DNA of 33,701 nucleotides, from the NCBI GenBank assembly GCA_947632385.1, contig CANRPD010000020.1, forward strand, positions 1-33,701, given 5' to 3'. Every line of letters begins with the position of its first letter. Within the stretch, counting starts at the first letter, position 1. Made by a program: the position numbers and the translations under genes. Below, one piece after another: positions 1,671 to 28,111 of this stretch. The notes beneath the pieces were generated by a model, which was given only the letters and a program-made list of their open reading frames with translations, searched no databases and was not told where the DNA came from. This DNA comes from an uncultured Clostridia bacterium (lineage in GTDB: Bacteria; Bacillota; Clostridia; Oscillospirales; Acutalibacteraceae).

Positions 1671-1750
1671 GTCTCGCCGCCCCGCCGCCTTTGGCGGCGG
1701 GGCCTTCTCCGCAGGAGAAGCGCCCGGGCCGCAGGCCCGGGCGGCGAGAC
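1671..1750. repeat. Three-armed cloverleaf element, copy 1
   Basis: The outer stem GTCTCGCCGC (1671-1680) pairs with GCGGCGAGAC (1741-1750). Three hairpins fit between: 1681-1689 with 1693-1701 (loop TTT), 1704-1710 with 1714-1720 (loop GCA), and 1723-1730 with 1734-1741 (loop GCA). It lies just downstream of the membrane-protein gene (minus strand), so it may also act as a transcription stop. Copies 2-4 are at 2776, 23558 and 28028. Copy 4 has nearly the same outer stem but different arms. Confidence 0.75.
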
Positions 1751-1766
1751 GGCGGGGCCTGCGGGC

Positions 1767-2654
1767 TTAGAACATCCCGGGCAGGAGCAGCATCAGGGCA
1801 ACCCCGGCCAGCAGGGACAGCAGATTCGCGGAAAACGCATAGAGCGCCGCCCGCACCGGGCCCGTGGGCCGTCTCCGGGTGTGTTTGGGCAGCAGCATCG
1901 CGTAGAGCACGGCCTCCACGACAAAAATGAGCAGCTCCAGCAGGAAGTACAGCAGCAGCGTCGCAAGCGGGCCGGAAAAATACCCCACCAGATTCAGCGC
2001 CACGTTGAGCCCCACCTGGGTCACGCCGTTGACCAGCAGGATCAGCAGCAGCGGGACCTTTTCCCGGTACCCGAAGGCCAGCGCCAGGAACATCTCCACC
2101 CCCAGGGTGAGCAGCAGCCGCAGGAAAAAACCCAACAGCTCCGGCCCAAGGCGGGTGTCGCGCTCCACGGAGATCGTTGCACCGCCCACCCCCAGGGGAT
2201 CCACCTCCAGGGTCCCGTCTGTGATCCGGGCGGTAAACGTGCTGTGAAATGCGTACCGCTCCAAGATCCCGCTGGAGAGGAAGACCTCCCGCTCCGGGAA
2301 ATACAGCAGCAGCTTGAACCGATAGGGCGGGTAGTAGGTCCAGGCAAGCTCTCCGGTCTCCCCCACGTCCCAGCTCTCCTGCAGGTAGTAGTAGCCGTCC
2401 GGGTCCTCATACCGGACGAACACCTCCCAGCCGGGCATGGCCCGCCGCCACTCGTCGGGCTCTTCGCCCTCCCAGACGCTGGCGGGACCGGTGGATTCCT
2501 TCTCCGACAGCAGCGTGCCCCAGCAGGGCTCGTCCCCCAACCCGTAGATGGTGATCTGCACCGAGGGCTTGGGGCCGGAATCGGCGTGGATGGGGACCGC
2601 CAGCGTGCAGAACAGGAGCACAGCCAGCAGCCAGCACAGTCCTTTTCGTCTCAT
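1767..2654 (-). CDS. Exported/membrane protein of unknown function
   Basis: I do not recognise this 295-residue protein. It starts with a typical signal peptide (MRRKG, then a leucine-rich core, cleavage likely after HADS or nearby). About 150 polar, aromatic residues follow, presumably outside the cell. The C-terminal 130 residues hold about four or five hydrophobic segments with short charged links, ending in a last helix LLSLLAGVALMLLLPGMF. The ATG at 2654 is chosen because AGGAGG ends about 8 bases upstream; a GTG at 2663 overlaps that ribosome site. A sigma-A promoter lies at 2678-2706, so the gene is probably monocistronic. A short exported domain joined to a helical bundle could be a sensor or envelope protein, but nothing here shows which. 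Confidence 0.8.
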   Translation of the reverse strand: MRRKGLCWLLAVLLFCTLAVPIHADSGPKPSVQITIYGLGDEPCWGTLLSEKESTGPASVWEGEEPDEWRRAMPGWEVFVRYEDPDGYYYLQESWDVGETGELAWTYYPPYRFKLLLYFPEREVFLSSGILERYAFHSTFTARITDGTLEVDPLGVGGATISVERDTRLGPELLGFFLRLLLTLGVEMFLALAFGYREKVPLLLILLVNGVTQVGLNVALNLVGYFSGPLATLLLYFLLELLIFVVEAVLYAMLLPKHTRRRPTGPVRAALYAFSANLLSLLAGVALMLLLPGMF

Positions 2655-2677
2655 GAAGCGCACCTCCTTCTGGTTCC

Positions 2678-2706
2678 AGTATATCGGAGCGGACCGGGGA
2701 AAGCAA
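2678..2706 (-). promoter_or_regulatory. Promoter of the 1767-2654 membrane protein
   Basis: On the minus strand, a -35 box TTGCTT (2701-2706) and a -10 box TATACT (2678-2683) are separated by 17 bases. The -10 ends 23 bases before the chosen ATG, which leaves just room for the AGGAGG site. Confidence 0.7.
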
Positions 2707-2775
2707 GTTACAGTTGGGCTACAAACTCCCTACAAACCGGTAACATCGCCCGCCCCGCCTGCCGGGAGGCCGCCG

Positions 2776-2867
2776 GTCCCCGCCCCGCCCGGCGGTTTGC
2801 CCGCAAACCGCCGGCTTTCCCTCCAGGAAAGCGCCCGGTCCGGGGGCCCGGGCGGCGGGGCGGGGAC
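2776..2867. repeat. Three-armed cloverleaf element, copy 2
   Basis: A perfect 14-bp outer stem joins GTCCCCGCCCCGCC (2776-2789) to 2854-2867. The arms are 2790-2800 with 2803-2813, GCTTTCC (2814-2820) with GGAAAGC (2826-2832), and GCCCGG (2833-2838) with CCGGGC (2848-2853). The arms abut with no spare bases, giving a closed cloverleaf. The stem sequence is unrelated to copy 1, but the layout is the same. It lies between the promoter region of the membrane protein and the GGGtGRT terminator. Confidence 0.75.
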
Positions 2868-2890
2868 ACCCTCGGCCAGAACGCGGCCGC

Positions 2891-2924
2891 AAAAAAGCAC
2901 CCCCGCCGGTAGGGGCGGGAGTGC
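2891..2924 (-). terminator. Terminator of the NifU-like/GGGtGRT operon
   Basis: On the minus strand, GCACTCCCGCC pairs with GGCGGGGGTGC across a short loop (2897-2924) and is followed directly by TTTTTT (2891-2896). It begins about 22 bases after the GGGtGRT stop. Confidence 0.9.
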
Positions 2925-2946
2925 TCGCAGGTCGGATCGCAGAAAC

Positions 2947-3954
2947 TTACTTGGTGCCCTCGTACACCGCCACGGCGCAGGCCACGGTGGCGCCCACCAT
3001 GGGGTTGTTGCCCATGCCGATGAGGCCCATCATCTCCACGTGAGCCGGCACGGAGGAGGACCCGGCGAACTGGGCGTCGCCATGCATGCGGCCCATGGAG
3101 TCGGTCAGGCCGTAGGAGGCCGGGCCGGCAGCCATGTTGTCGGGATGCAGGGTACGGCCGGTGCCGCCGCCGGAGGCCACGGAGAAGTACTTCTTGCCGT
3201 TCTCGTTGGCCCACTTCTTATAGGTGCCCGCCACCAGATGCTGGAAACGGGTGGGGTTGGTGGAGTTGCCGGTGATGGACACGTCCACGCCCTCGTGCTT
3301 CATGATGGCCACGCCCTCCAGCACGTCGTTGGCGCCGTAGCACTTCACCGCCGCGCGCTCGCCGTCGGAGAAGGGCCGCTCTTCCTCCACATGCAGCTCG
3401 CCGGTGAAGAAATCGTAGTCCGTCTTCACATAGGTGAAGCCGTTGATCCGGGAAATGATGTAGGCGGCGTCCTTGCCCAGGCCGTTCAGGATGATGCGCA
3501 GGGGCTCCTTGCGGGCGCGGTTGGCCGTCTTGGCAATGCCGATGGCGCCCTCAGCGGCCGCAAAGGACTCGTGGCCCGCCAGGAACGCAAAGCACTTGGT
3601 CTCGTCCCGCAGCAGCATGGCGCCCAGGTTGCCGTGGCCCAGGCCCACGTTCCGCTGCTCCGCCACAGAGCCGGGGATGCAGAAAGCCTCCAGGCCGATG
3701 CCGATGGCCTCGGCCGCCTCGGCGGCGGTCTTCACGCCCTTCTGGATGGCCACCGCGCAGCCCAGGGTGTAGGCCCAGCCGGCGTTCTCAAATGCGATGG
3801 GCTGCACGCCCTTGACGATCTCGTAGGGATCGAAGCCCTTGCTGTTGCACAGCGCTCTCGCCTCTTCGAGGGACCCGATGCCGTACTCGGCCAGGCACTT
3901 CTCGATCTTCGGCATTCTTCTCTCTTTGCCTTCAAACACAACGTCGTTTGCCAT
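2947..3954 (-). CDS. GGGtGRT family protein
   Basis: This 335-residue protein carries the sequence that names its family: SGGGTGRTLHP, around residues 265-275. Other conserved-looking blocks are NVGLGHGNLGAM, FLAGHESFAAAEGAIG, SITGNSTNPTRFQHLV and MGNNPMVGATVACAVAVY. The biochemical role of GGGtGRT proteins is not established. In anaerobes they are typically found beside a NifU-like scaffold protein, as here, so an Fe-S or metal-related role is inferred from context only. It is the second gene of a two-gene operon, 32 bases after the NifU-like gene, with AGGAGG 8 bases before its ATG and its own terminator downstream. Length and frame look complete. No signal peptide or membrane segment is visible, so it is probably cytoplasmic. 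Confidence 0.88.
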   Translation of the reverse strand: MANDVVFEGKERRMPKIEKCLAEYGIGSLEEARALCNSKGFDPYEIVKGVQPIAFENAGWAYTLGCAVAIQKGVKTAAEAAEAIGIGLEAFCIPGSVAEQRNVGLGHGNLGAMLLRDETKCFAFLAGHESFAAAEGAIGIAKTANRARKEPLRIILNGLGKDAAYIISRINGFTYVKTDYDFFTGELHVEEERPFSDGERAAVKCYGANDVLEGVAIMKHEGVDVSITGNSTNPTRFQHLVAGTYKKWANENGKKYFSVASGGGTGRTLHPDNMAAGPASYGLTDSMGRMHGDAQFAGSSSVPAHVEMMGLIGMGNNPMVGATVACAVAVYEGTK

Positions 3955-3986
3955 TTTGGTTATCCTCCTGTGTCAATTGATGTGCA

Positions 3987-4679
3987 TCATTCTTCTCTGG
4001 GGTCGATGTACTTGGCAGCGCCGTCGAACCGGCCGTACTGGCCGATGTTCTTCTGGTACGCCTCATCGGGAGAAACGCCGTGCCGGATGTCTTCCAGCAT
4101 CTTGCCCACGCGCACGAACTGATAGCCGATGACCTCGCCTTCCTCGTCCAGGGCCATCTTGGTCACATAGCCCTCGGCCATCTCCATGTAGCGCACGCCC
4201 TTGAGCTTGGTGGAGAACATGGTGCCCACCTGAGAACGCAGGCCCTTGCCCAGGTCCTCCAGGCCGGCGCCGATGGGCAGGCCGTCCTCGGAGAAGGCGG
4301 TCTGGCTGCGGCCGTAGGCCAGCTGCTTGAAGATCTCGCGCATGGCCACGTTGATGGCGTCGCACACCAGGTCGGTATTCAGGCATTCCAGCAGGGTCTT
4401 GCCCGGGAGGATCTCCGCGGCCATGGCGGCGGAATGGGTCATGCCGGAGCAGCCGATGGTCTCCACCAGCGCCTCCTGGACGATGCCCTCCTTCACGTTC
4501 AGGGTCAGCTTGCAGGCGCCCTGCTGCGGCGCGCACCAGCCGATGCCGTGGGACAGGCCGGAGATGTCTTTGATCTCATACGCCTTGACCCATCTGCCCT
4601 CCTCGGGGATCGGCGCCGGGCCGTGATGCGGGCCCTTCTTCACCGTGCACATATTTTCCACTTCATGGGAATAGTTCAT
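3987..4679 (-). CDS. NifU-like iron-sulfur cluster assembly scaffold protein
   Basis: The 230-residue protein resembles the clostridial NifU/IscU-like scaffolds that accompany GGGtGRT genes. Possible ligand cysteines are C in GIGWCAPQQGACKL (two), ETIGCSGMTHSAAMAAEIL and NTDLVCDAINVAM. The CSGMTHSAAMAA block is the IscU/NifU-like core around the second cysteine. The ATG at 4679 follows AAAGGAG by 8 bases; upstream extension would run through the promoter at 4732-4760 and is rejected. It is the first gene of the operon with GGGtGRT. Assembly or transfer of Fe-S clusters in the cytoplasm is the likely role by family, and what the cluster is delivered to is not shown. Confidence 0.85.
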   Translation of the reverse strand: MNYSHEVENMCTVKKGPHHGPAPIPEEGRWVKAYEIKDISGLSHGIGWCAPQQGACKLTLNVKEGIVQEALVETIGCSGMTHSAAMAAEILPGKTLLECLNTDLVCDAINVAMREIFKQLAYGRSQTAFSEDGLPIGAGLEDLGKGLRSQVGTMFSTKLKGVRYMEMAEGYVTKMALDEEGEVIGYQFVRVGKMLEDIRHGVSPDEAYQKNIGQYGRFDGAAKYIDPREE

Positions 4680-4731
4680 AATCGGGACTCCTTTCGTTTT
4701 CTGCGTATCGTGACCGATACATTCTCCTCCC

Positions 4732-4760
4732 ATTATAAACGGATTGTCCAAAGGTTGCAA
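4732..4760 (-). promoter_or_regulatory. Promoter of the NifU-like/GGGtGRT operon
   Basis: On the minus strand, -35 TTGCAA (4755-4760) and -10 TATAAT (4732-4737) are 17 bases apart. This gives a 5' leader of about 45 bases before the ATG at 4679. Confidence 0.85.
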
Positions 4761-4791
4761 GCCCTCTCGCAAAAAAATCTTCCGTTTTGCC

Positions 4792-4826
4792 AAAAAACGG
4801 CGCCGCCCGACCCTTCGGGCGGCGCC
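4792..4826 (-). terminator. Terminator of the arginine operon
   Basis: A perfect 12-bp GC stem, GGCGCCGCCCGA with TCGGGCGGCGCC (4799-4810 with 4815-4826) and a 4-base loop, is followed on the minus strand by a G and TTTTTT. It sits about 10 bases after the GNAT stop codon and separates the arginine operon from the next promoter. Confidence 0.95.
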
Positions 4827-4836
4827 GCAGGCGCGT

Positions 4837-5280
4837 TTATGCTTCCGGTCCGTAAAACCACCGGTCCATCCCGGCCCCGCCGGTCTCGTTGGGCCGCTGG
4901 CGAAAGCCGAACTGCTCGTAAAAGGTCTCCCGCCCCGCCGCGGACATCAGCGACACCTTCACCCGCCAGCCGGGGCGCAGCTGCTCCTTCAGGGCGGTCA
5001 GCAGCTTGGCCACCATGGTGGTTCCCAGGGCCTGTCCCCGGTATTCCGGCAGCACCACCACGTCGGAGAGATACGCCACGTAGCTGCCGTCCCACAGCAG
5101 CCGGGCCATGGCCACCGTCTGCCCATCCACCCGCGCCGCCACGATGCGAAACGCGTTGTCCAGGCCGTTTTGGGCCTGCTCCACCGGAAAGGCCGGCCAC
5201 CCCGTGGAGGTCCGCAGCCGCAGGTAGTCCTCCACCGAGAGGGTGTCCTCCCACTGGATGGCGCTCTCGGTCCCCGTCAT
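4837..5280 (-). CDS. GNAT-family N-acetyltransferase
   Basis: This 147-residue protein has the GNAT acetyl-CoA site: strand DVVVLPEY followed by RGQALGTTMVAKLL (R/Q-x-x-G-x-G/A type) around residues 72-92. A late FYEQFGFRQRP block is typical of the family's final strands. It is the last gene of the arginine operon. Its ATG overlaps the argF stop by 4 bases (ATGA), so the two are translationally coupled. The substrate is unknown. Position suggests an amino acid or arginine-related metabolite, but GNAT genes are also common passengers. It is not a clear ArgA, and ArgJ in this operon already supplies N-acetylglutamate. The terminator follows about 10 bases after its stop. Confidence 0.85.
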   Translation of the reverse strand: MTGTESAIQWEDTLSVEDYLRLRTSTGWPAFPVEQAQNGLDNAFRIVAARVDGQTVAMARLLWDGSYVAYLSDVVVLPEYRGQALGTTMVAKLLTALKEQLRPGWRVKVSLMSAAGRETFYEQFGFRQRPNETGGAGMDRWFYGPEA

Positions 5281-6185
5281 GCGCCCATCACCCGGACCAA
5301 AACCGCCTTCTGGGCATGCAGGCGGTTCTCCGCCTCCTCAAAGATCTCCCCGGCGTGGGCCTCAAAGACCCCTTCGCTGATCTCCTCGCCCCGGTGGGCG
5401 GGCAGACAGTGCAGCACCATGGCGTCCGGCGCGGCCAGGGCCATCAGCTCCTCGTCCACGCAGTACCCGGCAAAGGCCGCCTCCCGGGCCTTGCGCTCGT
5501 CCTCCTGGCCCATGGAGGTCCACACGTCGGTGTACACCGCGTCGGCCCCCTGCACCGCCTGCCGTGGGGAGTCGGTGATCTCGAACCGCTCCGGGTACCC
5601 CACCGCGAACTCCAGGATCTCCCGGGGCGGCCGGTACCCTGCGGGGCACGCCACCGACACCCGCATCCCGGTCTTCAGTCCCCCCACGATGAGGGAATTC
5701 ATCATGTTGTTGCCGTCGCCGATAAAGCACAGCTTGCGCCCCTCCAGGCCGCCCTTGTATGCCCGGATGGTCTGCAGGTCGGCCAGCACCTGGCAGGGGT
5801 GGCAGAAGTCCGTCAGGCCGTTGATCACCGGCACGGAGCCGTACTGGGCCAGGGCCTCCACCTCCTCCTGGGCAAAGGTGCGGATCATGATCCCGTCCAC
5901 ATACCGGGAGAGGACCCGGGCGGTGTCCTGCACCGGCTCCCCCCGGCCGATCTGGCTCCCGTCGGAGGACAGCACCACAGCGTACCCGCCCAGCTGGTGG
6001 ATGCCCACCTCAAAGGACACCCGGGTGCGGGTGGAGGACTTCTCAAAGATCATCCCCAGGCACTTCCCCTGGAGGATGGGATGGGCCACGCCCTGCTTGT
6101 TTTCGGCCTTCAGCCGGTCCGCCAGGTCCAGCAGATCCACGATCTCCTCGCCGGTCAGGTCCAGCAGCTTCAGTAAATGCTTCAT
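5277..6185 (-). CDS. argF: Ornithine carbamoyltransferase
   Basis: It joins carbamoyl phosphate to ornithine to make citrulline, step six of arginine synthesis. At 302 residues it has the usual length. Seen: SSTRTRVSFE (carbamoyl phosphate loop, about residues 51-60), the FCHPCQVLADLQT block (ornithine carbamoyltransferase HPxQ motif), DGNNMMNSL, and HCLPAHRGEEIS with the ornithine-side HCLP motif near residue 265. These distinguish it from aspartate carbamoyltransferase. The gene lies 18 bases after argD, with GGGGAG ahead of its ATG, and overlaps the GNAT gene downstream. Biosynthetic rather than catabolic use is inferred from the operon. Confidence 0.96.
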   Translation of the reverse strand: MKHLLKLLDLTGEEIVDLLDLADRLKAENKQGVAHPILQGKCLGMIFEKSSTRTRVSFEVGIHQLGGYAVVLSSDGSQIGRGEPVQDTARVLSRYVDGIMIRTFAQEEVEALAQYGSVPVINGLTDFCHPCQVLADLQTIRAYKGGLEGRKLCFIGDGNNMMNSLIVGGLKTGMRVSVACPAGYRPPREILEFAVGYPERFEITDSPRQAVQGADAVYTDVWTSMGQEDERKAREAAFAGYCVDEELMALAAPDAMVLHCLPAHRGEEISEGVFEAHAGEIFEEAENRLHAQKAVLVRVMGA

Positions 6186-6203
6186 GTCGTTTCTCCCCTT
6201 TTT

Positions 6204-7382
6204 TTATCCGTTGCAGCTCTGCAAAACGTCCGCGAAAATGGCGAGCCCCTGGTCCAGGTCCTCCCGGGAGATGGTCAGCGGCGGCAGGAACCGCACCCGC
6301 TCCTTGGCGGTGAGGATCAAAAGCCCCCGCCGGGCACATTCGGTGAGCACCCGGTGGGCGTCCAGCCCCGCTTCCAGCGCCACGCCGATCATCAGGCCCC
6401 GGCCGTACACCCCAGTCACCCGGGGCGTCTCCAGCAGCCGCTCCCGCAGGTACGCGCCCTTTTCCCGCACTGCTTCCAGGAACGCCGGGTCGCTGACCCG
6501 GGACACCACCTCCAGCCCGCCGGCGGCGGCCACCGGGTTCCCCCCAAAGGTGGACCCTTGCTCCCCGGGCTTCAGCACGTCCCGCAGCCGCTCGCTCACC
6601 AGGCACGCCCCCATGGGCAGCCCCCCGGCAATGGCCTTGGCGGTGGTCACCACGTCCGGCTGCACCCCATATCCCTGATAGCTGTAAAAATACCCTGTGC
6701 GGCCCACGCCGGTCTGCACCTCGTCGATGATCAGCAGCACGTCCTTCTCGTCGCACAGCGCCCGCACCCCCCGAACGAAGTCCTCCTCCATGGGCACCAC
6801 GCCGCCTTCGCCCTGCACCGTCTCGATGAGCACCGCGCACACCGTCTCGTCCATCTGCTCCGCCACGCTGTCCAGGTCGTTGGCCCGGGCATACCGGAAC
6901 CCCGGGGTCAGGGGCTGGAACAGCTGGTGAAAGCTCTCCTGCCCGGTGGCGGCCAGGGTGGTCAGCGTCCGCCCGTGGAAGGAATTCTCCAGGGTGGCGA
7001 TCTCAGCGGCGCCCCGCTGAGCCCCGAACTTCCGGGCCACCTTCACGGCGCACTCGTTGGCCTCCGCCCCGGAATTGCAGAAAAACGCCTGGGCCATGCC
7101 CGCCGCGGTGCACAGCCTCTGGGCCAGGGCGGCGGTCACCGGGGAGTAGTAGTAGTTGCACAGGTGCTGGATCTCCCCCGCCTGCCGGGTCACGGCGGCC
7201 ACCCAGCCCGGGTCCGCATAGCCCAGGGCGTTGACCCCGATGCCTGCGGTGAAGTCGATGTATTCCCGTCCGTCCGCGTCCCAGGCCCGGGCGTTCTGCC
7301 CCTTCACCAGGGCGGCGTCCACCCGGCCGTAGGTCCCCAGGATGTACTTCCGGTCCTGGGCCCGGATCGTTTCAAACTCCAT
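6204..7382 (-). CDS. argD: Acetylornithine aminotransferase
   Basis: A class III PLP aminotransferase of 392 residues that converts N-acetylglutamate semialdehyde to N-acetylornithine. Seen: NSGAEANECAVKVARK, the PLP-binding IIDEVQTGVGRTG with its aspartate, and the Schiff-base lysine in TTAKAIAGGLPMGA. GSTFGGNPVAAA near residue 275 is also typical. The ATG at 7382 follows GGGGAG by about 6 bases; longer frames upstream only read through argB in another frame. The gap to argB is 20 bases and to argF 18 bases. A succinyldiaminopimelate role is possible for the family, but the operon makes ArgD the natural call. Confidence 0.95.
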   Translation of the reverse strand: MEFETIRAQDRKYILGTYGRVDAALVKGQNARAWDADGREYIDFTAGIGVNALGYADPGWVAAVTRQAGEIQHLCNYYYSPVTAALAQRLCTAAGMAQAFFCNSGAEANECAVKVARKFGAQRGAAEIATLENSFHGRTLTTLAATGQESFHQLFQPLTPGFRYARANDLDSVAEQMDETVCAVLIETVQGEGGVVPMEEDFVRGVRALCDEKDVLLIIDEVQTGVGRTGYFYSYQGYGVQPDVVTTAKAIAGGLPMGACLVSERLRDVLKPGEQGSTFGGNPVAAAGGLEVVSRVSDPAFLEAVREKGAYLRERLLETPRVTGVYGRGLMIGVALEAGLDAHRVLTECARRGLLILTAKERVRFLPPLTISREDLDQGLAIFADVLQSCNG

Positions 7383-7402
7383 GATCGTCTCCCCTTTCCG
7401 GA

Positions 7403-8254
7403 TCAGTACAGCATGGTGCCGATCCCTTCGTCGGTGAACAGCTCCACCAGGATGGAATGCGGGATCCGCCCGTCGATGATGTGGGCCCGGCCCACGCCCC
7501 GGCGCACGGCGTCCGCCGCACAGTCGATCTTGGGGATCATCCCTCCCGAGATGACCCCTTCCCGCTTCAGGCGGGCCACCTCGCTCACCCGCAGCACCGG
7601 GATGATGGACTCCTCGTCTGCGGTGTCCCGCAGCAGGCCCCGCACATCGGTGAGCAGGATGAGCTTCATGGCCCCCAGCTCCCCGGCGATCCGCGCCGCC
7701 GCCGTGTCCGCGTTGACGTTGAACACCTCGCCGTGATACCCCGCCGCCACGGTGGACACCACCGGGATGTACCCGTTTTCCGCCGCATCGGTCAAGATCT
7801 GGGTGTTCACCTCCCGGATCTCCCCCACATAGCCCAGGTTCTCGTCCAGCATGTCCGCCTTCAGCAGCGAGCCGTCCAGCCCGCACAGGCCGATGGCCTT
7901 GCCTCCCGCGTCCTCCAGCCGCTGCACCAGGTCCTTGTTCACCTTCCCCGCCAGCACCTGCTGCACGATCTCCATGGTCTCGGGGTCGGTATAGCGCATC
8001 CCGCCTACGAACCGGCTCTCCTTGCCCACCTTTTGCAGCATGGTGTTGATCTCCGGCCCGCCGCCGTGCACCAGCACCACGTTGATGCCCACCAGCTGCA
8101 TCAGCACGATGTCGCTCATCACGGCGCTTTTCAGCTCCTCGTCCAGCATGGCGTTGCCGCCGTATTTCACCACCAGGGTCTGCCCGGCGTATTTCTTGAT
8201 GTACGGCAGGGCCTGCACCAGTACGTGGGCCCGCTCGCTGTTTGAGATATCCAT
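7403..8254 (-). CDS. argB: Acetylglutamate kinase
   Basis: This 283-residue kinase phosphorylates N-acetylglutamate, the second step of the pathway and usually the feedback-controlled one in organisms with the ArgJ cycle. Seen: VVKYGGNAM (phosphate-binding lysine/glycine loop, about residues 23-31), LVHGGGPEIN (substrate loop), and VNADTAAARIAGEL plus GGMIPKIDCA near the C-terminus. The length matches arginine-sensitive, hexameric forms, whose N-terminal helix precedes the YGGNAM loop; the first 20 residues here (NSERAHVLVQALPYIKK) fit such a helix, so arginine inhibition is likely but inferred. It sits 16 bases after a small membrane protein gene. Confidence 0.95.
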   Translation of the reverse strand: MDISNSERAHVLVQALPYIKKYAGQTLVVKYGGNAMLDEELKSAVMSDIVLMQLVGINVVLVHGGGPEINTMLQKVGKESRFVGGMRYTDPETMEIVQQVLAGKVNKDLVQRLEDAGGKAIGLCGLDGSLLKADMLDENLGYVGEIREVNTQILTDAAENGYIPVVSTVAAGYHGEVFNVNADTAAARIAGELGAMKLILLTDVRGLLRDTADEESIIPVLRVSEVARLKREGVISGGMIPKIDCAADAVRRGVGRAHIIDGRIPHSILVELFTDEGIGTMLY

Positions 8255-8270
8255 GTTTTTCCTCTCCCGG

Positions 8271-8591: not shown

Positions 8592-8618
8592 GGCCGCGCC
8601 TCCTTTCGCTCCGCAGGT

Positions 8619-12184: not shown

Positions 12185-12691
12185 GCTTCCACACTCGCTT
12201 TCATCCAGTGTCAAAATGCTTTGAAGGCCCCCGGCAGGGGGGCAGCAGTCGGGTTGCGGTAGGGTTGCGGCAGGGTTCGAGGGGGAAAATGGGCGGTTCG
12301 TGCACGGTGGGAGCAGGTTGGGGGATTTTTGCCCCTCAAAGCCGGGGCAAACAGCGGGGACAGACGATCGCCCGCCCCGCACAGCGCGGGCCGATATGGT
12401 TGATTTTTCAGCACACCTGCTCGCGCGACACGCCCCGCGGGGACGAGGCGCCGGCCCGGGGAAAGAACTCACCAAGAGGCCGGGCTGGCAGGAGCCGGGT
12501 TGCGGTGGGGTTGCGGTAGGGTTGCGGTACGAAAAAGCGGGGTTCGTGCACGGTAGGGGCAGTTTTGGGGTTTTCGGTCAACACAGCGCGGGCTAATTGG
12601 GGTGGTTTTTCAGCACACCTGCTCGCGCGACACGCCCTGCGGGGGCACCCGCCACGCGTGACTTGCCCGCCGCGGGCACGCGGCACGCGGA
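12185..12691. repeat. Repeat-filled spacer between argG and argH
   Basis: There is no credible gene. Two diverged copies of one composite unit lie here, about 12251-12440 and 12497-12642. Each has GGGTTGCGGTAGGGTTGCGG-type tracts, then GTTCGTGCACGGT (12296-12308 and 12542-12554), then a perfect 28-bp match at 12404-12431 and 12606-12633. The end near argG (12640-12690) carries GC hairpins that could weaken read-through on the minus strand. The same GTTCGTGCAC core recurs upstream of the terminase genes (27891 and 28262). Confidence 0.75.
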
Positions 12692-16280: not shown

Positions 16281-16781
16281 GTGCTGTACCATATCCGTCA
16301 AAAGGTGATGTCCCTGCACGGGGTCTACAACGTCACCGACACCGCCGACCGGCTGTGCTTCCACGTGAAGCAGCGGGCGGTCTCCGCCACCAACCACACC
16401 GTGCTCTACGACGAGAACGACCTGGAGCTGGGGACCATCCACCGGAAGATGGTGTCCCTGCACGGGACGCACACCATCGAGATGAGCAACGGCGAAAAGG
16501 CCGAGCTGCGGGAGCACCGGGCCCTGGAGCTCCACGACAACTACGACGTGGAGGGCTTTGGGTGGACGGTGGCCGGGAACATCACCGGCCACGAGTTCGC
16601 CATTCAGGACGCGGGGGGCAATGAGATCGCCCGCAGCCAGGAGGCGTACCTCTCCATCGGCGACCGCATGGCCGTGGAGGTGCTGGACGAGAGCCAGACC
16701 GCCAAGGTGGTGGCCGTGCTCATCGCCATTTTGGAGATCCAGCGGGACCGCAAGAACGCGGTGGCGCACGATCCCCAGTAA
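16281..16781 (+). CDS. LURP-one-related (tubby-like fold) protein
   Basis: A 166-residue protein starting at a GTG placed 8 bases after AAGGAGG. Its repeated short beta-strand pattern (HTVLYDENDLELGTIHRK, HGTHTIEM, AIQDAGGNEIARS) and the C-terminal hydrophobic stretch VVAVLIAILEIQRD match the LURP-one-related/YxjI family, which folds like the tubby barrel with a central helix. The molecular role of bacterial members is not established. It has its own promoter and a strong terminator. Long open frames running into it from upstream on this strand are antisense to hflX and rejected. Confidence 0.8.
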   Translation: MLYHIRQKVMSLHGVYNVTDTADRLCFHVKQRAVSATNHTVLYDENDLELGTIHRKMVSLHGTHTIEMSNGEKAELREHRALELHDNYDVEGFGWTVAGNITGHEFAIQDAGGNEIARSQEAYLSIGDRMAVEVLDESQTAKVVAVLIAILEIQRDRKNAVAHDPQ

Positions 16782-20577: not shown

Positions 20578-20600
20578 GGTCCTTCCTCCTTTCCGGCGTT

Positions 20601-21630: not shown

Positions 21631-21976
21631 AGTAAAACGCCTCCTCTCCCAGCAGCCGCCGGGCGATCCGCCGTTTCTCGTCCCGCAGCGCTCGGGCCCG
21701 CCGGGCGGCGGGGGCGGCGGTCACCCGCACCCCGTCGGCGGTCACTGCCTCCGGCGCCGCCGCCTCGTCGATGAGGGCCAGCTGGTAGAAGGCCTCCGCC
21801 GCCTGCCAGTTTTCCAGGGCCGCGGCCGCCGGGGCCGTGGTGTCCCGGTCTGCCACCGCGGCCAGACAGTCCGCGCACAGCCGCAGGCACAGCTGCGCCC
21901 GGGCGTCCCCTGCCGTCAGATCCTCTCCGGAAAACAGCCCGAAGAGGGCTTGCACATGCGCTAGTTCCGGTCTCAT
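21617..21976 (-). CDS. Head-tail adaptor protein
   Basis: A 119-residue, mainly helical protein (LAHVQALFGLFSG, ARAQLCLRLCADCLAAVAD, LENWQAAEAFYQLALIDEA) directly after the capsid gene. This is the usual place and shape of the gp6/gp15-like ring that docks on the portal. AGGAGG precedes the ATG at 21976. Between its stretches is a proline/alanine link, and a basic ARRARALRDEKRRIARRL helix follows, then FYFGRM at the end. The family is inferred from order. Confidence 0.62.
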   Translation of the reverse strand: MRPELAHVQALFGLFSGEDLTAGDARAQLCLRLCADCLAAVADRDTTAPAAAALENWQAAEAFYQLALIDEAAAPEAVTADGVRVTAAPAARRARALRDEKRRIARRLLGEEAFYFGRM

Positions 21977-22050
21977 TTCGGTTCCTCCTTTTCCGCCCGG
22001 GCCGGGGGGAGGGACCGGCCCCAGCCGATCCCCTGCCCGCGCCCGTGGGC

Positions 22051-23052
22051 TCAGCTGTACTGCAGTCCCCGGGCCGCTCCGGCGTAGATCCGGGCAAAGC
22101 CCGCCACGCTGCTGATGGATGCCCGCTCCAGCTGCCGGTCGATGAGCCGGTCGCTGTCGGTGCAGATCCCCTCTCCGGCCTGGACCATCTCCAGGGCGCA
22201 GTCCCGGTCCAGGGCCAGCAGCTTCTTGTCCGCCATGCCCGGCACGTGGATGAGCTTGGCCCCCAGGGGCGTCACCAGACGGCCGGTACCCTGGAAATTC
22301 ATCCCCGCCTGGGGGTCCTTGAACTCCGCGATGCCCAGCAGCTGCTGCATGGCCCCGGTGCCCCCCACCAGCACGTTGAGGCGGAAGGGGGCCAGCTCGC
22401 CCCACAGCTTCACCAGGTCGCTGTAGTCCGGGGTGCCGCTGTCGAAAACCACCCCGGGCTGGGTGCCATCGCCGCTTACCAGGGCGTCCACCGCGTCCAG
22501 CATCTGGGCGTTGGCAATGGCCGCGCCGATCTGCCGCAGCGCCACGGAGAACAGGTCCAGCTTCATGAACCGCAGCGCCTCATAGGAGCTCACCAGCATG
22601 CGGCCGCGCTTTTTCAGCTGCACCAGGCCCTTCCCCAGGCGGATGTGGGTCTCGGGGAGCTGGGCGCCCTCGGCCACCCGGGCCGCCGAGGCGTTCCCGT
22701 TCTCCTGGGCGTTCACGGTGCGGTAGTCCAGCCCGTCGATGTGGGTCACCGCCGCCACCAGCTCCTCCACCCGGCTGGCCTTGTCCATGCCCTGGCGCAC
22801 CGCCCGGGCCACATATTCCGGGAACAGGGCCGCGCTGCCGGCGGTGCCGAAAAAGTGCTCCACCGTGTCGGAATCCGGCCCGCTGACGCGGATGCCGAAG
22901 CGCATCAGCTGGCGCTGGTAGGCGTCCAGGCCCTCCAGGGCGGTGCCCCGGTAATTTTCGCTGCTGTCCAGCTCCTCCAGCACCTGGGTAAAGCTCTTGC
23001 CGGGCACGGCGTACATGCCCTTTTCCAACGTGATCCGTTCAAAACCTGCCAT
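22051..23052 (-). CDS. Major capsid protein, HK97 fold type
   Basis: A 333-residue protein. The ATG at 23052 lies 8 bases after AAAGGAG; an ATG at 23058 is too close. The pattern fits HK97-like capsid subunits of the XkdG type: an N-terminal arm, FGTAGSAALFPEYVARAVRQGM, the strand block VAEGAQLPETHIRLGKG, an axial helix region (DLFSVALRQIGAAIANAQMLD) and the late VTPLGAKLIHVPGMADKKLLALD (P/A domain strands). A short C-terminal RASISSVAGFARIYAG follows. It is preceded by a decoration protein and a protease, completing a head module. Confidence 0.88.
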   Translation of the reverse strand: MAGFERITLEKGMYAVPGKSFTQVLEELDSSENYRGTALEGLDAYQRQLMRFGIRVSGPDSDTVEHFFGTAGSAALFPEYVARAVRQGMDKASRVEELVAAVTHIDGLDYRTVNAQENGNASAARVAEGAQLPETHIRLGKGLVQLKKRGRMLVSSYEALRFMKLDLFSVALRQIGAAIANAQMLDAVDALVSGDGTQPGVVFDSGTPDYSDLVKLWGELAPFRLNVLVGGTGAMQQLLGIAEFKDPQAGMNFQGTGRLVTPLGAKLIHVPGMADKKLLALDRDCALEMVQAGEGICTDSDRLIDRQLERASISSVAGFARIYAGAARGLQYS

Positions 23053-23086
23053 TTTCATGTCTCCTTTCGTCATTTGACCCTGGTTT

Positions 23087-23425
23087 TTACAGCAGCATCC
23101 AGCAGCTGCCGTTTTCCACTGCCGCCACCGTGACGGTCCTTCCGCCGGTCTCCACGGACGCCACCTTGCCGGTCTCGTCCACGGCCACCGCCTGGGTCCC
23201 CACGGAGAGCGCACCCGCGCAGGCCGCCTGCACGAAGCCGGCCACCTGCACCGCCGCTTCCCCCGCGTGGACACTGATTGCCACCCCGGCGAACACGTCC
23301 CCGTCGGCGGCTGCCTTCTCCACACGGCCGTTGCCGGTGACCTTCACCAGGTCGCCGGGCTGCACGTCCTCGGCCGCGTCGAACGTGGCCACCACTGCGC
23401 CGATCCCTTCAAATGCTACGTTCAT
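23087..23425 (-). CDS. Capsid decoration/cement-like protein
   Basis: A 112-residue, nearly all-beta protein (VQPGDLVKVTGNGRVEKAA, GVAISVHAGEAAVQVAGFV, VAVDETGKVASVETGGRTV). It resembles the small cement or DUF2190-like proteins placed just before phage capsid genes. The ATG at 23425 has AAGGAG about 10 bases upstream; an upstream extension through the cloverleaf is rejected. It lies 34 bases before the capsid gene. It probably sits on the outer head surface. Confidence 0.72.
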   Translation of the reverse strand: MNVAFEGIGAVVATFDAAEDVQPGDLVKVTGNGRVEKAAADGDVFAGVAISVHAGEAAVQVAGFVQAACAGALSVGTQAVAVDETGKVASVETGGRTVTVAAVENGSCWMLL

Positions 23426-23667
23426 GTTTTTTCTCTCCTTTTTTGAGTTTGTATTTGCATCAGCGTTGCCGCTGTCTGCCGGTTTTTTCGGGCCTGCCGG
23501 TCCCGTCCCCCGCCGGCCCGTGGGCGGGGCTCCTCCCACCCGCCTGCGTCCCGCCGACCCCCGGGCGCTCACCCGGGCTGCGCCCGGGGCGGCCCTCCCC
23601 TGCGGGGAGGGCCCGGCCGCGCCTGCGGCGCGGCGCAGCGCCCGGGGGCCTTCCGCTCACCGCCGCC
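23426..23667. other. Gap in the head operon holding a cloverleaf
   Basis: There is no gene. Most of the stretch is cloverleaf copy 3 (23558-23648) with GC-rich flanks, plus the ribosome site of the decoration gene at its left end. A break of this size between protease and decoration genes is unusual for a phage operon. Confidence 0.6.
23558..23648. repeat. Three-armed cloverleaf element, copy 3
   Basis: The outer stem CCCCCGGGCGCT (23558-23569) pairs perfectly with 23637-23648. The arms are 23572-23578 with 23582-23588, 23592-23600 with 23604-23612, and 23616-23623 with 23627-23634. All three loops are the same TGC. Every arm is perfectly paired. It lies inside the phage cassette, 19 bases beyond the protease stop. 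Confidence 0.85.
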
Positions 23668-24636
23668 TCAAATGCGGTACGCCTGGACGGCGGGGGCCGT
23701 CTCCGGGGACTTCTCGGGCAGCGTCTGGGGCCGGATGGGCAGCCGCAGGGCCGCCTCCCGCTCCAACCCCCGGCTCAGGGCCTCCAGCTCCGGGGCCGTC
23801 AGGTGGGCAAAGGCCTTTTCCAGCACCTCCCGGGGCGCCCCGGGCTGGGTCACCGCGCAGTACCGCAGGGCGTTCTCCTGCAGGCTTTTCCGATACGCCG
23901 CTCCCCACGCCGCCTGCTGCCGCAGGGAGGTAAGCTCCTCCGCCAGCAGCCGCGCCTCCCGGGGGGTCAGGTCCCGGTCGCCCCGGGCGGCGGCGCCCAG
24001 GGCCTTCTCCAGGGTTGCCTCCCCGTCCTCCACAAAGGCCTTGCGCACTCCGGCCTCCCGCTGGGCGGGCACCGCCACAAAGGAGCACTCATAGGCGTCC
24101 GTGGGCTCCTCCAGGATCCGCACGCACTGGACGCCGCCGTACCACTGGCCCGCCTCGTGGGCGCAGTCCGTCTCCCCGCACACGGAGCACACCCGCCGGG
24201 CCACCGCGCAGCTGATGCTCACCTCCTTGAGGATCCCGCTCTCGATAAGGGCGATGGTCTCCTCGTTGCGCCGGGTCCGGGGGAGATATGCCCGGGCGGT
24301 CAGCCGGGTGTAGGGCTCCCCGGCCTGGGTGCGCCGGTCCGGCTCCGTCTCCAGCTCCGTCTGGTAGATCCGCGCCGTCTGGTTGGCGCTTTTCCGCTCG
24401 TGGTCCAGAATGCACGTCCGGCCCAGGAACAGCTCCCGCAGCGCATCCAGCGCCGCCAGGGAGAACCGCTCCCCGTCCCGGTCCACCTCGTTGTCGCACA
24501 GCACCAGGGAGAAGGCGTACACCTCCTGGGGGCCGTATTCCCGCCGGGTGTACCGGTTGATCCGCTCCATCTCCTCCGGGGAGAGCGCCTCTGCCCCCTG
24601 GGCAAAGCCCTCCTGCCGCTTCACGTCACTGTCCAT
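23668..24636 (-). CDS. Prohead protease-like protein
   Basis: A 322-residue protein between portal and capsid. Seen: a probable catalytic histidine in CILDHERKS near residue 79 and a serine in GILKEVSISCAVAR near residue 140, the order expected for HK97/herpes-type prohead proteases. CSVCGETDCAH just after the serine is a cysteine-rich insertion (C-x2-C-x4-C-x-H), which could bind zinc. The C-terminal third is helical and may be the scaffold part. The ATG overlaps the portal stop by 11 bases. It should cut capsid precursors during maturation. Confidence 0.78.
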   Translation of the reverse strand: MDSDVKRQEGFAQGAEALSPEEMERINRYTRREYGPQEVYAFSLVLCDNEVDRDGERFSLAALDALRELFLGRTCILDHERKSANQTARIYQTELETEPDRRTQAGEPYTRLTARAYLPRTRRNEETIALIESGILKEVSISCAVARRVCSVCGETDCAHEAGQWYGGVQCVRILEEPTDAYECSFVAVPAQREAGVRKAFVEDGEATLEKALGAAARGDRDLTPREARLLAEELTSLRQQAAWGAAYRKSLQENALRYCAVTQPGAPREVLEKAFAHLTAPELEALSRGLEREAALRLPIRPQTLPEKSPETAPAVQAYRI

Positions 24637-25756
24637 GTTTTGCCTCCTTTTCCAGTTTTTCTTCCACCTGCCGGGCCCGGGCCGTCAGGTACCGGGCGTT
24701 GGCGTGGTCCACCTCGTCCTGCATGGTCACGTCGTCCCAGACCACCTCCACCCGGGGGTCGAAGCCCTCCAGCTGGAGGTACGTCTCGGCGATGCGGGCC
24801 ACCACGGGGGTCAGCAGCCGGCGGTAGGCCTCCAGCTCGCTGGTGAGCACGTCCGCCTGCTGGCTGGACATGCGCTCGGTGCTGGACCAGGACAGCCCCA
24901 GCAGGAACGGCGGCAGACCCAGCTTCGCCACGATCTGCTCCAGCATCTGCCGCACGGGCACGTCGCTGTCCAGGATCTGGTTGTCCGCGCCGATGGCCCG
25001 GATGGACACATCGCCCACCGCCACGAAATCCCCGGGGGCGCTGTCGCTCATGGCCCGGCGCCACTCCCGGGCCATCTGTCCGGCCCGCTCCGCCGCGGAA
25101 AATTCCCCGTCCTCCCCGGGCTTGCAGGTCACCGCGAACCGCACGTTGCCCAGCCGGTCCCAGTTGGCGCCCACGGTGCGGTAGATCTTCAGCAGCACCT
25201 CGCTGACGAAGGGCAGGCCCTCCAGGATGGAGGTGCCCCAGGGCTGGCCGGCCCGGGGATTGAGCGCCGACACCAGCAGCAGCTCCGGGTAGGGGCAGGG
25301 CCGCAGCCGGCCCCCCTCCCGCACGGCCACCGCCACCTCCAGCGGGCCGGGGCTGGTGAGCTCCAGGTCGTCCAGGTCGGCGTTGTACAGCGCCCGCAGA
25401 CGCCCGCCGGCCACCACCATCTCCCCCACCGCGGTGCCGCAGGTCAGCAGCTCCTCCAAAAAGCTGCCGATGAACTCCTGGGCGCCCCGGCCGGCGGCGC
25501 CCACCTGCACCGAGCCCAAAAACCGGTCCAGGGCCTCCTGACCCGCCGGGTCGGCGCACACCACGGTGAATTCCCCGATGAGCCGCCGCAGCTTGCTCAC
25601 CGCCGCGTCGATGATGGGCACCGAGCGCCGCAGACTGCGGTACAGCGCCCGCTGGGCCGGGCCCGGGGGCAGCGCCTGCTCCCAGGGCCGCACCGCCCGG
25701 GGCGCGCTCTGCACCGCCGCAGCCGCCGGGGTCTTGTCACGTTTCCAAAATCCCAC
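24626..25756 (-). CDS. Portal protein
   Basis: A 376-residue portal of the XkdE type. Seen: basic N-terminus GFWKRDK, stem-like LRRSVPIIDAAVSKLRRLIG, LEGLPFVSEVLLKIYRTVG, the DNA-channel region with DNQILDSDVPVRQMLEQIV, and the late KLGLPPFLLGLSWSSTERMS with a final helix bundle. The GTG at 25756 is chosen because AAAGGAG lies about 7 bases upstream; an ATG at 25774 sits on the ribosome site. Twelve subunits would form the ring through which terminase packs DNA. It is separated from terL by 488 bases of repeats, but overlaps the protease gene. Confidence 0.87.
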   Translation of the reverse strand: MGFWKRDKTPAAAAVQSAPRAVRPWEQALPPGPAQRALYRSLRRSVPIIDAAVSKLRRLIGEFTVVCADPAGQEALDRFLGSVQVGAAGRGAQEFIGSFLEELLTCGTAVGEMVVAGGRLRALYNADLDDLELTSPGPLEVAVAVREGGRLRPCPYPELLLVSALNPRAGQPWGTSILEGLPFVSEVLLKIYRTVGANWDRLGNVRFAVTCKPGEDGEFSAAERAGQMAREWRRAMSDSAPGDFVAVGDVSIRAIGADNQILDSDVPVRQMLEQIVAKLGLPPFLLGLSWSSTERMSSQQADVLTSELEAYRRLLTPVVARIAETYLQLEGFDPRVEVVWDDVTMQDEVDHANARYLTARARQVEEKLEKEAKHGQ

Positions 25757-26244
25757 GATCTCTCTCCTTTCCATCCGCGCCCCGCAGCCCGATCCCGGGT
25801 GGGGGCGAAATCGTCTCAAACTTGCAATCAAGGGGCCTTTTTGTGTCTCGAAGCCGCCGGAAGGGGCGGTTTGGGGGGGCAAACAGGCCTCCAGTGCGCC
25901 GGTCCAGGTTGGCCGGGGCGCGAGCCGCCGGGCGGGCGGGGGTCGGGTCCCCGGGAACCAAAAATGCGCCGAACGTGCCCCAAAGGGGTGGTTTTGCGTC
26001 TTGAAGCCGCCGGAAGGGGCCTTTTTGTGTCTCCAACCTGCCCGAAAGGGACGTTTTGAGGGTTCCAACGGGCCTCCGGCGCGCCGGGCGGGGTTGGCCG
26101 AGGGCCGGGCCGCCGGTTGAGCGGGGTCGGGTCCCCGGGAAGAATAAATGCGCCCAACGTGCCCCAAAGGGGTGTTTTTGTGTCTCGAACCTGCCCGCAA
26201 GGGGCATTTTGGGTGGCCGAAAGTGCACCAAGGGGCTCCGGGGG
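25757..26244. repeat. 184-bp tandem repeat between terL and portal
   Basis: Copies start at 25830 and 26014, with a third partial copy from about 26199. Matching markers (AAGGGGCCTTTTTGTGTCT, and GGGTCGGGTCCCCGGGAA near 25940 and 26124) fix the period at 184 bases. Each unit also carries a degenerate half-unit motif of the type GTCTCGAA(G/C)C(C/T)GCC. The units are diverged and have no credible coding frame. It breaks the packaging operon exactly between motor and portal genes. Confidence 0.8.
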
Positions 26245-27492
26245 TCAGCGGGGAGAGGCCTGGCAGAAGTTCCCGGGGCTGCGGCCGGCCTCCACCACGG
26301 TGGAGACGAAGTAGCGGATGTCGTCCATGGCGTGGTCGTTTTCCTTGAGCACCCGGTCCTGGTCGGTGTCCTCGTCCCATCGGTAGAGGCCGAATTCCCG
26401 GATGGCGTGCTTGCACCGACGGTCGATGCGCACCCGGCCGGTCTGCAGGGCAGCGGCGGTCTGGCGGATGCCGGTGAGCACGTCGTTTTTGGCGGGGGTC
26501 ACCCGGAACCGGCCCTTTTTGCGGATGAGCTGGATCAGGCTCAGGGCGCTGGGGTCCACCACCACCCGGCTGACGTTCACCCCCCGGCACAGGCGCTCCA
26601 GGGCCCGGTAGTGCTCCTCGTCGGTGCGCAGGCGGTCCTGGGCCCGGCCGTCGTAGTAGCTCTCCTTGACACGGTACCAGCAGCCGCCCTTTTTGCCCCA
26701 CAGGCCGAAGGAGGTGGGGTTGCGGGTGCCGTAGTCGCAGGAGACGGCCCACTGGGTGATCCCCGCCGCCGGGGCGTCGCACACAGCGTCCTTCCAGTCC
26801 GGGTACACCAGGCCCTGGGAGGCCTCCCAGCGGCCCTCCACGAAGCGGCGGTAGAACACGCCGGAAAAGAGCTTCCGGTAGCGCTCCAGCACCGCGGGGC
26901 TGAGGCTGGGGTTGTCCCGCATGGAAAAGTGCAGGTACAGCATGTCCCGCTGGGCCCGCTGCTCGATCCACTCCCGGTAGAACCAGTGGCCGGGGTGCTC
27001 GGGGTTGCAGCTGAACCAGAATTTGGCCCCCGGCGCCGAGCACCGGGCCAGGGCCTGCTCCACGAAGGACCGGGGCATCAGGGCCACCTCGTCGAAGAGG
27101 ACGCCCCCCAGGGTCATGCCCTGGATCAGTGCGGCGGAGCCCTCGTCCCGGCCGCCGAAGAGATAGAACCGGCCGGTGCGGCCCCCGCGGCTGACCAGGA
27201 CCAGGTTCTCGCTGTGGCGGATCTTCACGGAGAAGCCCAGCCGGGGCAGCAGGGGGAGCAGGTCCACCAGGAGGTTGCGCCACATGCTGCGGATGGTCTT
27301 GCCGCACAGGGCAAAACTGCCCCCGGGGCTGGCGGTCATGGCCCAGAAGACGAAGCCCAGCCCCAGGGCCAGGGTCTTGCCGCTGCGCACCGCCCCGTCG
27401 CAGATGATGCCCGCCCGGTCCCGCCAGGGGCTGCGGGGGGTCCACCAGCACAGGACCTTCATCTGCTTGGGGGAAAAGCTCACGAGACGCAC
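26245..27492 (-). CDS. Terminase large subunit
   Basis: The 415-residue packaging motor has an N-terminal ATPase with Walker A CDGAVRSGKTLAL (about residues 30-42) and Walker B GGVLFDEVALM. NPEHPGHWFY serves as the coupling region. A C-terminal RNase H-like nuclease domain includes VSCDYGTRNPTSFGLW, where the D is the first metal ligand; VVDPSA and MDDIRYF provide likely further acidic residues. GTG 27492 is chosen from GGAGG 7 bases upstream; GTG 27483 is the alternative. It overlaps terS by 13 bases. All catalytic motifs look intact. Confidence 0.93.
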   Translation of the reverse strand: MRLVSFSPKQMKVLCWWTPRSPWRDRAGIICDGAVRSGKTLALGLGFVFWAMTASPGGSFALCGKTIRSMWRNLLVDLLPLLPRLGFSVKIRHSENLVLVSRGGRTGRFYLFGGRDEGSAALIQGMTLGGVLFDEVALMPRSFVEQALARCSAPGAKFWFSCNPEHPGHWFYREWIEQRAQRDMLYLHFSMRDNPSLSPAVLERYRKLFSGVFYRRFVEGRWEASQGLVYPDWKDAVCDAPAAGITQWAVSCDYGTRNPTSFGLWGKKGGCWYRVKESYYDGRAQDRLRTDEEHYRALERLCRGVNVSRVVVDPSALSLIQLIRKKGRFRVTPAKNDVLTGIRQTAAALQTGRVRIDRRCKHAIREFGLYRWDEDTDQDRVLKENDHAMDDIRYFVSTVVEAGRSPGNFCQASPR

Positions 27493-27812
27493 GGCTGATC
27501 CTCCCCCTCCCGGATGCCGCGCAGGGCCAGGGCGCCCTGCTCCAGCGCCCGGAGGATGCCGGCCTGGTCCTCCTCGCAGAAGGCCAGCATGGCCTGCAGG
27601 GCTGCCATGCGGTCGTAGAATTTGATCTCCGTGCCGCCGCCTTTCACCGTCTTGATCTCCGACACCCGGAACAGGTCCATGTTCCGGATGGCGCGCTCGC
27701 CGGGCTTTTCCGCCACCAGCAGGCGCACGGGGCCGTCCACCGGGCCGAACGCCAGGTGGGCATAGCCCTCCAGGACCCTGCGGCGCAGGGCCTCTTTGTC
27801 CAATTCTTCCAT
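27480..27812 (-). CDS. Terminase small subunit-like protein
   Basis: A 110-residue protein directly before terL. The stretch VKGGGTEIKFYDRMAALQAM resembles the end of terminase small subunits (oligomerisation part). At 110 residues it is shorter than the usual 140-180, and I see no clear helix-turn-helix at the N-terminus, so DNA recognition may be altered or lost. The ATG at 27812 has AAAGGAG 8 bases upstream. It is the first gene of the cassette; no clear promoter is found in the repeat-rich DNA upstream. Confidence 0.68.
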   Translation of the reverse strand: MEELDKEALRRRVLEGYAHLAFGPVDGPVRLLVAEKPGERAIRNMDLFRVSEIKTVKGGGTEIKFYDRMAALQAMLAFCEEDQAGILRALEQGALALRGIREGEDQPCVS

Positions 27813-27857
27813 GTTTCGAGCTCCTTTCTTGGGGTTGGTTTGGGGGACTTTTTGGGG

Positions 27858-28005
27858 GGTTCGCGCCGGTTTGAAGGGGGTTTTTGCACGGTTCGTGCAC
27901 GTTCGAGGTTTTTTTCAAACCGATGGGCGCGACGGCTCACTAATTTCCCGTAGGAACTGGAACGCGGCGTTGCCCCGTCTGGGCACGGACCGGCAGGGGC
28001 CGCGG
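27858..28005. repeat. Direct repeat upstream of terS, copy A
   Basis: This matches 28229-28365 along its length with scattered changes. Shared blocks include TTTGAAGGGGGTTTTTGC, CGGTTCGTGCACGTTCGAGG, GGGCGCGACGGCTCACTAAT and TAGGAACTGGAACGCGGCGT. It contains the palindromic GCACGGTTCGTGC. The GTTCGTGCAC core is shared with the argG-argH spacer. Confidence 0.85.
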
Positions 28006-28027
28006 CTTTGGCCTGCCGGGCTACCGG

Positions 28028-28111
28028 CCGTCTCGCGGGGGCGGCCCGGACCTTGGGCCGCCCCCCTCCTTTTGCGGAGCAAAAGGGCCTGCGGAGCAGG
28101 CGGCGAGACGG
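28028..28111. repeat. Three-armed cloverleaf element, copy 4
   Basis: The outer stem CCGTCTCGC (28028-28036) pairs with GCGAGACGG (28103-28111). The arms are GGGGGCGGCCC (28037-28047) with 28055-28065, CCTTTTGC with GCAAAAGG (28068-28086, loop GGA) and GCCTGC with GCAGGC (28087-28101, loop GGA). The outer stem shares CGTCTCGC with copy 1, 26 kb away. It lies between the two direct repeats. Confidence 0.85.

Follow-up and report, generated by a model that had tools for sequence, protein, structure and literature searches.

Four short intergenic stretches in the genome of an uncultured Clostridia bacterium (assembly GCA_947632385.1, contig CANRPD010000020.1) fold into a cloverleaf, an outer stem enclosing three adjoining hairpins, and the question that they raise is what sort of element keeps such a shape while hardly keeping its sequence, and whether the shape is kept as DNA or as RNA. 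The window, by which we mean the whole stretch of 33,701 nt that was analyzed, holds these loci within positions 1671..28111, where a first-pass annotation had described a family conserved in fold only. We find that the cloverleafs are a real dispersed family, held together by the fold, and we give a probability of about 0.6 to the reading that they are a dispersed extragenic palindromic DNA element resembling the repetitive extragenic palindromic (REP) sequences, defined by the four-way junction of the folded single strand, with shape in DNA kept over sequence.

When folded as DNA, all four loci formed the outer stem and three adjoining hairpins on both strands, with z-scores of -4.5 to -8.0 and none of 200 shuffles as stable in any of the eight folds. 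They are also the most stable 110-nt stretches of the window when it is read in 20-base steps (-48.2 to -53.5 kcal/mol), the next being a mostly single long hairpin at 16781 (-38.5 kcal/mol). Copy 1 (1670..1751, no strand assigned, as for copies 2 and 3) has an outer stem of 8 bp and arms of 11, 7, and 10 bp, and lies between convergent genes, 15 nt off the 3′ end of the gene at 1767-2663(-). Copy 2 (2776..2867; outer stem 13 bp, arms 11, 6, and 7 bp) has no unpaired junction bases and lies 79 nt off the 3′ end of a GGGtGRT gene at 2947-3954(-). Copy 3 (23558..23648; outer stem 12 bp, arms 7, 10, and 8 bp) lies 19 nt off the 3′ end of the gene at 23668-24636(-) and upstream of a phage capsid gene at 22051-23325(-). 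Copy 4 (28028..28111, minus strand) belongs to what we call the main subfamily and stands in a repeat island; it is marked by the outer stem GTCTCGCC and by a middle arm carrying TTTTGCTCCGCAAAA. The three hairpins and the perfect or nearly perfect pairing reported at first pass stand, with the outer stems corrected from 9-14 bp to 8, 13, 12, and 9 bp and with two exceptions to the pairing, namely one mismatch in the third arm of copy 2 and the eight unpaired junction bases of copy 3. A detector of shape alone, which demands an outer stem of at least 7 bp and three adjoining hairpins, each with 5 bp or more, under Watson-Crick pairing with at most one mismatch per arm, returned exactly the four known loci from the 33.7-kb window and nothing from 10 dinucleotide-preserving shuffles; its thresholds were chosen with the window already known, so that only the shuffles and the other genomes test it fairly.

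Further copies are numerous in the 1.96 Mb fetched from this genome (G000), which is 97.8% complete. The outer stem that copies 1 and 4 were said to share, GTCTCGC...GCGAGAC, is indeed common to both, and as a pattern (GTCTCGC, 50-80 bases, GCGAGAC) it was matched at 42 places in this genome, copies 1 and 4 among them, whereas the reversed control pattern had a single match. The outcomes named at first pass as refuting the family, that the genome has no further copies or that shuffled sequence has such folds as often, were therefore not observed, the shuffles having given no cloverleaf. A covariance model, R1, built from 38 of the 42 places gave 87 matches at an expect value (E) of at most 1 among 150 candidates scored in this genome, both strands counted. 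It recovered copies 1, 2, and 4 of the window but not copy 3 as a whole element, its other matches in the window (E of at least 0.06) being taken for noise, and following its matches revealed another sort of copy, which stands isolated and has different arms. With duplicates removed, the shape detector counted 61 copies here and nine in another species of the genus (G016), in the DNA fetched from each, a count that leaves out some model matches failing the strict shape filter. A simple sequence rule divided these 70 copies into 34 of the main subfamily and 36 recognizable by shape only. The elements are 70-102 bp long and have outer stems of median 9-10 bp; among the 61, the medians are 9 bp for the outer stem and 10, 7, and 10 bp for the arms. 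Since no junction base is unpaired in 28 of the 61 copies and at most one in 40, the eight in copy 3 being the maximum, each folded strand makes a near-perfect four-way junction. No four- or five-arm version was found, whether in the window, in the 400-kb sample of G016, in nine other members of the genus (329 kb), or at selected loci of this genome, and two-arm versions numbered none in the window, two at the selected loci, none in the nine genus members, and one in the G016 sample, where it belonged to a three-arm copy.

The sequence itself is kept loosely. In the model-aligned set, the consensus reads GNCTCGCC, a GC-rich arm, CTTTTTGC...GCAAAAAG, a second GC-rich arm, and GGCGAGNC, and the cores of the isolated copies (27 here and nine in G016) have a median pairwise identity of 63%, compared with 56% when shuffled. 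The fold changes in step on its two sides, as the first-pass annotation had seen among four copies. In an alignment of 80 model matches, which includes both strands of many copies, so that its rows are not independent, and which was fitted to the structure and thus favors it, 98.5% of cells pair compared to 74.7% in shuffles, and two-sided change is seen in 22 of the 24 pairs, with both sides changed in 394 cells, a single side in 10, and 28 cells unpaired. The covariation score was 0.535, compared with 0.135 for shuffled alignments and 0.047-0.118 for controls in which the structure was slid along the alignment; none of 500 shuffles matched these values, and the slid structures were only 44-58% paired.

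Several traits of the pairs and loops bear on whether the fold is one of DNA or of RNA. In 41 copies picked by the outer stem only, G-U pairs made up 13 of 1391 pairs on one strand and 27 of 1415 on the other, and in 60 copies picked by shape, a set biased toward Watson-Crick pairs, 21 of 2221 and 25 of 2224, while terminator-like hairpins of the same two genomes had 160 of 1747 (157 hairpins) and 264 of 2740 (249 hairpins), that is, 9-10% compared to 1-2% in the cloverleafs. Triloops account for 73 of 106 loops in the shape-only copies and 41 of 249 terminator-like hairpins, and 38 of those 73 are GNA or its complement TNC, as compared with 5 of the 41 and with about 1 in 8 expected from equal bases. 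C-GNA-G triloops are unusually stable in DNA. The GNA loop lies on the sense strand in 14 cases and on the antisense strand in 12, showing no sense bias, and in the main subfamily, 28 of 28 copies agree in the strand of their GNA and TNC loops. Taken together, the scarcity of G-U pairs, the GNA and TNC triloops, and the lack of a sense-strand bias point to folding as DNA, the pairing and loops being closer to those of folded DNA than to those of folded RNA. Of the two substrates on which selection had been suggested to act, DNA is therefore favored and RNA less so.

The copies also appear to have dispersed. Two copies lying 500 bp apart (L068) have cores that are 98% alike, while their flanks, at 59% and 49%, are no more alike than those of unrelated pairs. 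Just one further isolated pair exceeds 80% (L055 and L056); its flanks are 81% and 87% alike, and it is for that reason a duplication of a longer piece; between its members, a C-G pair has been gained symmetrically. When the gaps between orthologous genes in this genome were set against those in the DNA fetched from G016, five had a copy in at least one species and matches on both sides. Three of these are filled in one species only: a copy is present here and the gap empty in G016 (L035), the gap is empty here and filled in G016 (C5:9873-9911), or the element is missing here after the stop codon and present in G016, with ~0.9 kb of other DNA further on (C45). In the other two, both species have a copy, without clear likeness in one pair (L002 and L132) and with related sequence in the other (L213 and L133), where arm lengths differ on both sides. 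Four gaps matched on one flank only (L053, L067, L070, and C5:15090), in which the element is absent from one species, are weaker cases.

The distribution of the family among relatives is narrow in the stretches sampled, which were taken from contigs with earlier matches or by contig number and not at random. The shape detector found eight copies in 400,000 bases of G016, with none in two shuffles per stretch, and none in 14 genus members (400,000 bases) or in another set of nine (329,377 bases; 57-65% G+C), of which eight were new, so that 22 members and 729 kb beyond this genome and G016 had no cloverleaf. In 342,839 bases from members of the family and order, there was one odd AT-rich match. 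A 400-kb sample of this genome gave a single copy; its stretches hold none of the model matches, and the sample therefore tests for copies that the models missed. These counts suggest that the copies are clustered in the genome. Across 60 genomes including this one, R1 matched here, in G016 (2 matches), and in a third genome, G026 (6 weak matches of 54 nt). The single G026 locus read (L047) is a ~130-bp direct repeat with hairpins, GCGCGAAGCGC and TTTTTGCTGCGCAAAAA, half-matched by R1, which contains no cloverleaf and looks like a different family, and the model R2 had no match there. Among the candidates scored, 150 of them in this genome, R2 matched in two of 29 genomes of the genus, this one and G016; across 394 genomes of the order, it matched here only, which is weak evidence of absence because the scoring covered 11 candidates per genome. 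An exact-pattern scan of genome_contigs gave one match (Roseicyclus), near chance by our estimate, and one of viral_contigs gave none, although both collections may omit the window's own genome. The window contained no Rfam 15 match at gathering score (other copies were not scanned), and in a partial library, no title or abstract opening was found that describes such cloverleaf repeats.

The cloverleafs share features with several known systems. Mitochondrial double-hairpin and repetitive hairpin-forming elements are palindromic like the cloverleafs and reportedly mobile; they reside in organelle genomes, and we know of no four-way junction in them. REPs are short, palindromic, mostly extragenic, and present in many copies near gene 3′ ends, each a single palindrome of 20-40 bp that carries a GTAG or CGTC tag left unpaired and follows a family consensus (PMC3733652). 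The cloverleafs, like REPs and REPINs, are short, palindromic, and extragenic, with many copies near gene 3′ ends; they differ in having three hairpins within an outer stem, a variable sequence, and no Y1 transposase gene that we could find, and CGTC, where it occurs in a copy, is paired. They are thus REP-like in behavior, also in being confined to few species and in their presence or absence from one related species to the next, and not REPs by the defining features. Integron attC sites are likewise recognized as folded single-stranded DNA with poor sequence conservation (PMC2727003), which is the likeness; the difference is that attC has R and L boxes with extrahelical bases and the cloverleaf a four-way junction with paired arms. 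Such boxes were not seen by eye in the printed copies, the integron itself not having been searched for. Reverse transcriptase (PF00078, RVT_1), the mark of retrons, diversity-generating retroelements, and group II introns, had no match in this genome.

The main rival to a DNA element is an RNA element at the 3′ ends of mRNAs that acts in the transcript as terminator or stabilizer, with the compensatory changes selected in RNA. Location, with gene distances taken from a home-made codon-usage gene finder and not from annotation, speaks in its favor: predicted genes contain none of 59 copies from this genome, a gene 3′ end comes within 80 nt of 21 of the 25 isolated copies here and of 8 of the 9 in G016, and all 17 isolated copies in gaps between tandem genes (13 here, four in G016) are closer to the 3′ than to the 5′ gene end. 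A separate canonical U-tract terminator within 150 nt past the cloverleaf, moreover, was present at just 2 of 30 gene ends tested. Four of those 30 also showed a terminator-like site within 130 nt ahead of the element. The idea that the cloverleaf replaces the terminator was nevertheless unsupported, as gene ends without a cloverleaf have canonical terminators in only 33 of 154 cases in G016 and 3 of 13 in this genome, and gene ends with one in 2 of 8 and 1 of 3. In the copies inspected, the outer stem has no T run at its base, unlike an intrinsic terminator, where the U-tract comes straight after the hairpin. A tail motif, GGCGG or CGGCG, beside 17 of 35 isolated copies compared with 177 of 692 control positions, was weak and was not used. 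The few G-U pairs, the triloops where terminator-like hairpins favor tetraloops, the GNA loops without a preferred sense strand, and the window without an Rfam match also oppose an RNA role, which we consider unlikely.

If the element is DNA, its arms might still be a by-product of mutation, in which template switching during replication makes and mends hairpins in 3′ regions rich in G+C, no dedicated machine being needed. Template switching in hairpins can alter both sides of a stem at once (PMC8794818), and the predominance of two-sided changes, the symmetric gain in L055 and L056, and the two-sided differences in arm length between L213 and L133 agree with it. This is, however, a mutational process with no fixed number of arms; it does not predict exactly three in one outer stem, nor the lack of four-arm forms, nor the nine genus members of 57-65% G+C without a copy in 329 kb, and it leaves the L068 pair unexplained and does not show itself in close pairs, so that we judge it distinctly unlikely. 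Somewhat less probable again is a REP or miniature inverted-repeat transposable element (MITE) mobilized by a RAYT or IS200-like Y1 transposase, since lost or acting in trans. Copy number, location at 3′ ends, and limited spread are those of REPs (PMC3733652). The outer stem is an inverted repeat, such as a MITE has at its ends, and no target duplication, the other mark of a MITE, was resolved. Against it, Y1_Tnp (PF01797) had no match in this genome or in G016 (81% complete), the nine of 29 genus genomes that do have it show no R2 match, there is no unpaired GTAG or CGTC tag, and three arms within an outer stem take the place of one hairpin. For E. coli REP and bacterial interspersed mosaic elements, a role in supercoiling and gyrase binding has been proposed, and the cloverleafs, lying between convergent and tandem genes, could by analogy be cruciforms in the duplex that absorb supercoils or bind gyrase or SMC. 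No result here links the copies to supercoiling and such a role does not need three arms, which makes this the most improbable of the alternatives.

Under the DNA-element reading, a machine recognizing the folded single strand would spread copies, for instance on the lagging-strand template, perfect arms would be restored at the level of DNA, by events like template switching within hairpins, and selection would remove broken shapes. A bolder version, which we regard as possible but doubtful, is that of a mobile element whose only heritable identity is the four-way junction: a junction-specific nuclease or transposase would read the Holliday-like fold regardless of sequence, and hairpin-templated synthesis would renew the arms during movement, so that shape is inherited and sequence rewritten. 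Several observations weigh against the DNA-element reading. No partner gene was found with Y1_Tnp and RVT_1, other transposase classes not having been searched, and the usual REP partner (Y1_Tnp/RAYT) was thus not found in this genome. Neither a target duplication nor an exact insertion joint could be made out at the gaps compared, where flanks align loosely because the two species are ~70-90% alike in the compared genes. The mobility suggested by the first-pass annotation accordingly holds in outline, through the L068 pair and the three gaps filled in one species only, and not as regards a single-strand intermediate, target duplications, or a partner enzyme. In addition, a location after the stop codon is also compatible with a role at mRNA 3′ ends, 13 of the 27 isolated copies of this genome have no GNA or TNC loop, and in 3 of the 8 isolated copies with at least two such loops (both species), these lie on different strands. 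The copies are related by descent, and the arm and loop tests overstate their independence. Finally, the five closest main-subfamily pairs show four one-sided, one two-sided, and five unpaired changes, and change on both sides in one event is unsupported there because one-sided changes outnumber two-sided.

Most copies of the main subfamily belong to mosaic repeat islands, where frequently a pair of them, in direct orientation, flanks an AT-rich core. The island around copy 4 (27857..28504, minus strand) has repeated modules at 27857-27992 and 28228-28362 and an AT-rich core at 28405-28504(-) that is common to other islands of the genome; its motif, at 28435-28453, occurs at 25 places with at most two mismatches, compared to none for the control. 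Within the GC-rich islands, this core (ACATTTGTTCAAATATGAACAAATTGT...GGGGATATATGG), often flanked by directly repeated cloverleafs, appears promoter- or origin-like when judged by eye. The same island holds a 27-nt unit at 28190..28218(-), GTCCG-TGGC-CGGAC-GGGCCA-AGTCGCG (coordinates converted from the minus strand), and the islands in L001-L035 contain GTCCG-TAGC-CGGAC-TGGCTA-AGTCGCG and variants, sometimes in tandem. Both stem and loop of the unit covary, the loop pairing with bases just downstream, which gives two mutually exclusive hairpins. Five contigs of this genome (C7, C8, C11, C14, and C15; ~261 kb) had no R2 match among the matches listed, and the other contigs had several each. Elsewhere in the window, other intergenic repeats at 12241-12690 and 25819-26226 gave only short, chance-level matches in the relatives fetched, the phage capsid gene that copy 3 lies just upstream of is 49-63% related to phages from human feces, and the C-terminal part of a type III restriction endonuclease at 4-1464(+), on the window edge, is lower in G+C than its neighbors. 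The kinship of the capsid gene with fecal phages and the GGGtGRT gene suggest that the carrier is a gut Firmicute.

Covariation is usually taken as the mark of a functional RNA, and here strong covariation accompanies DNA-like traits. Given the few G-U pairs, the DNA-type triloops, and the lack of a preferred sense strand, what selection acts on appears to be folded DNA. If the copies spread by shape, searches by sequence would miss this dispersed element, which would also be a natural testing ground for junction-specific enzymes and for compensatory change by template switching.

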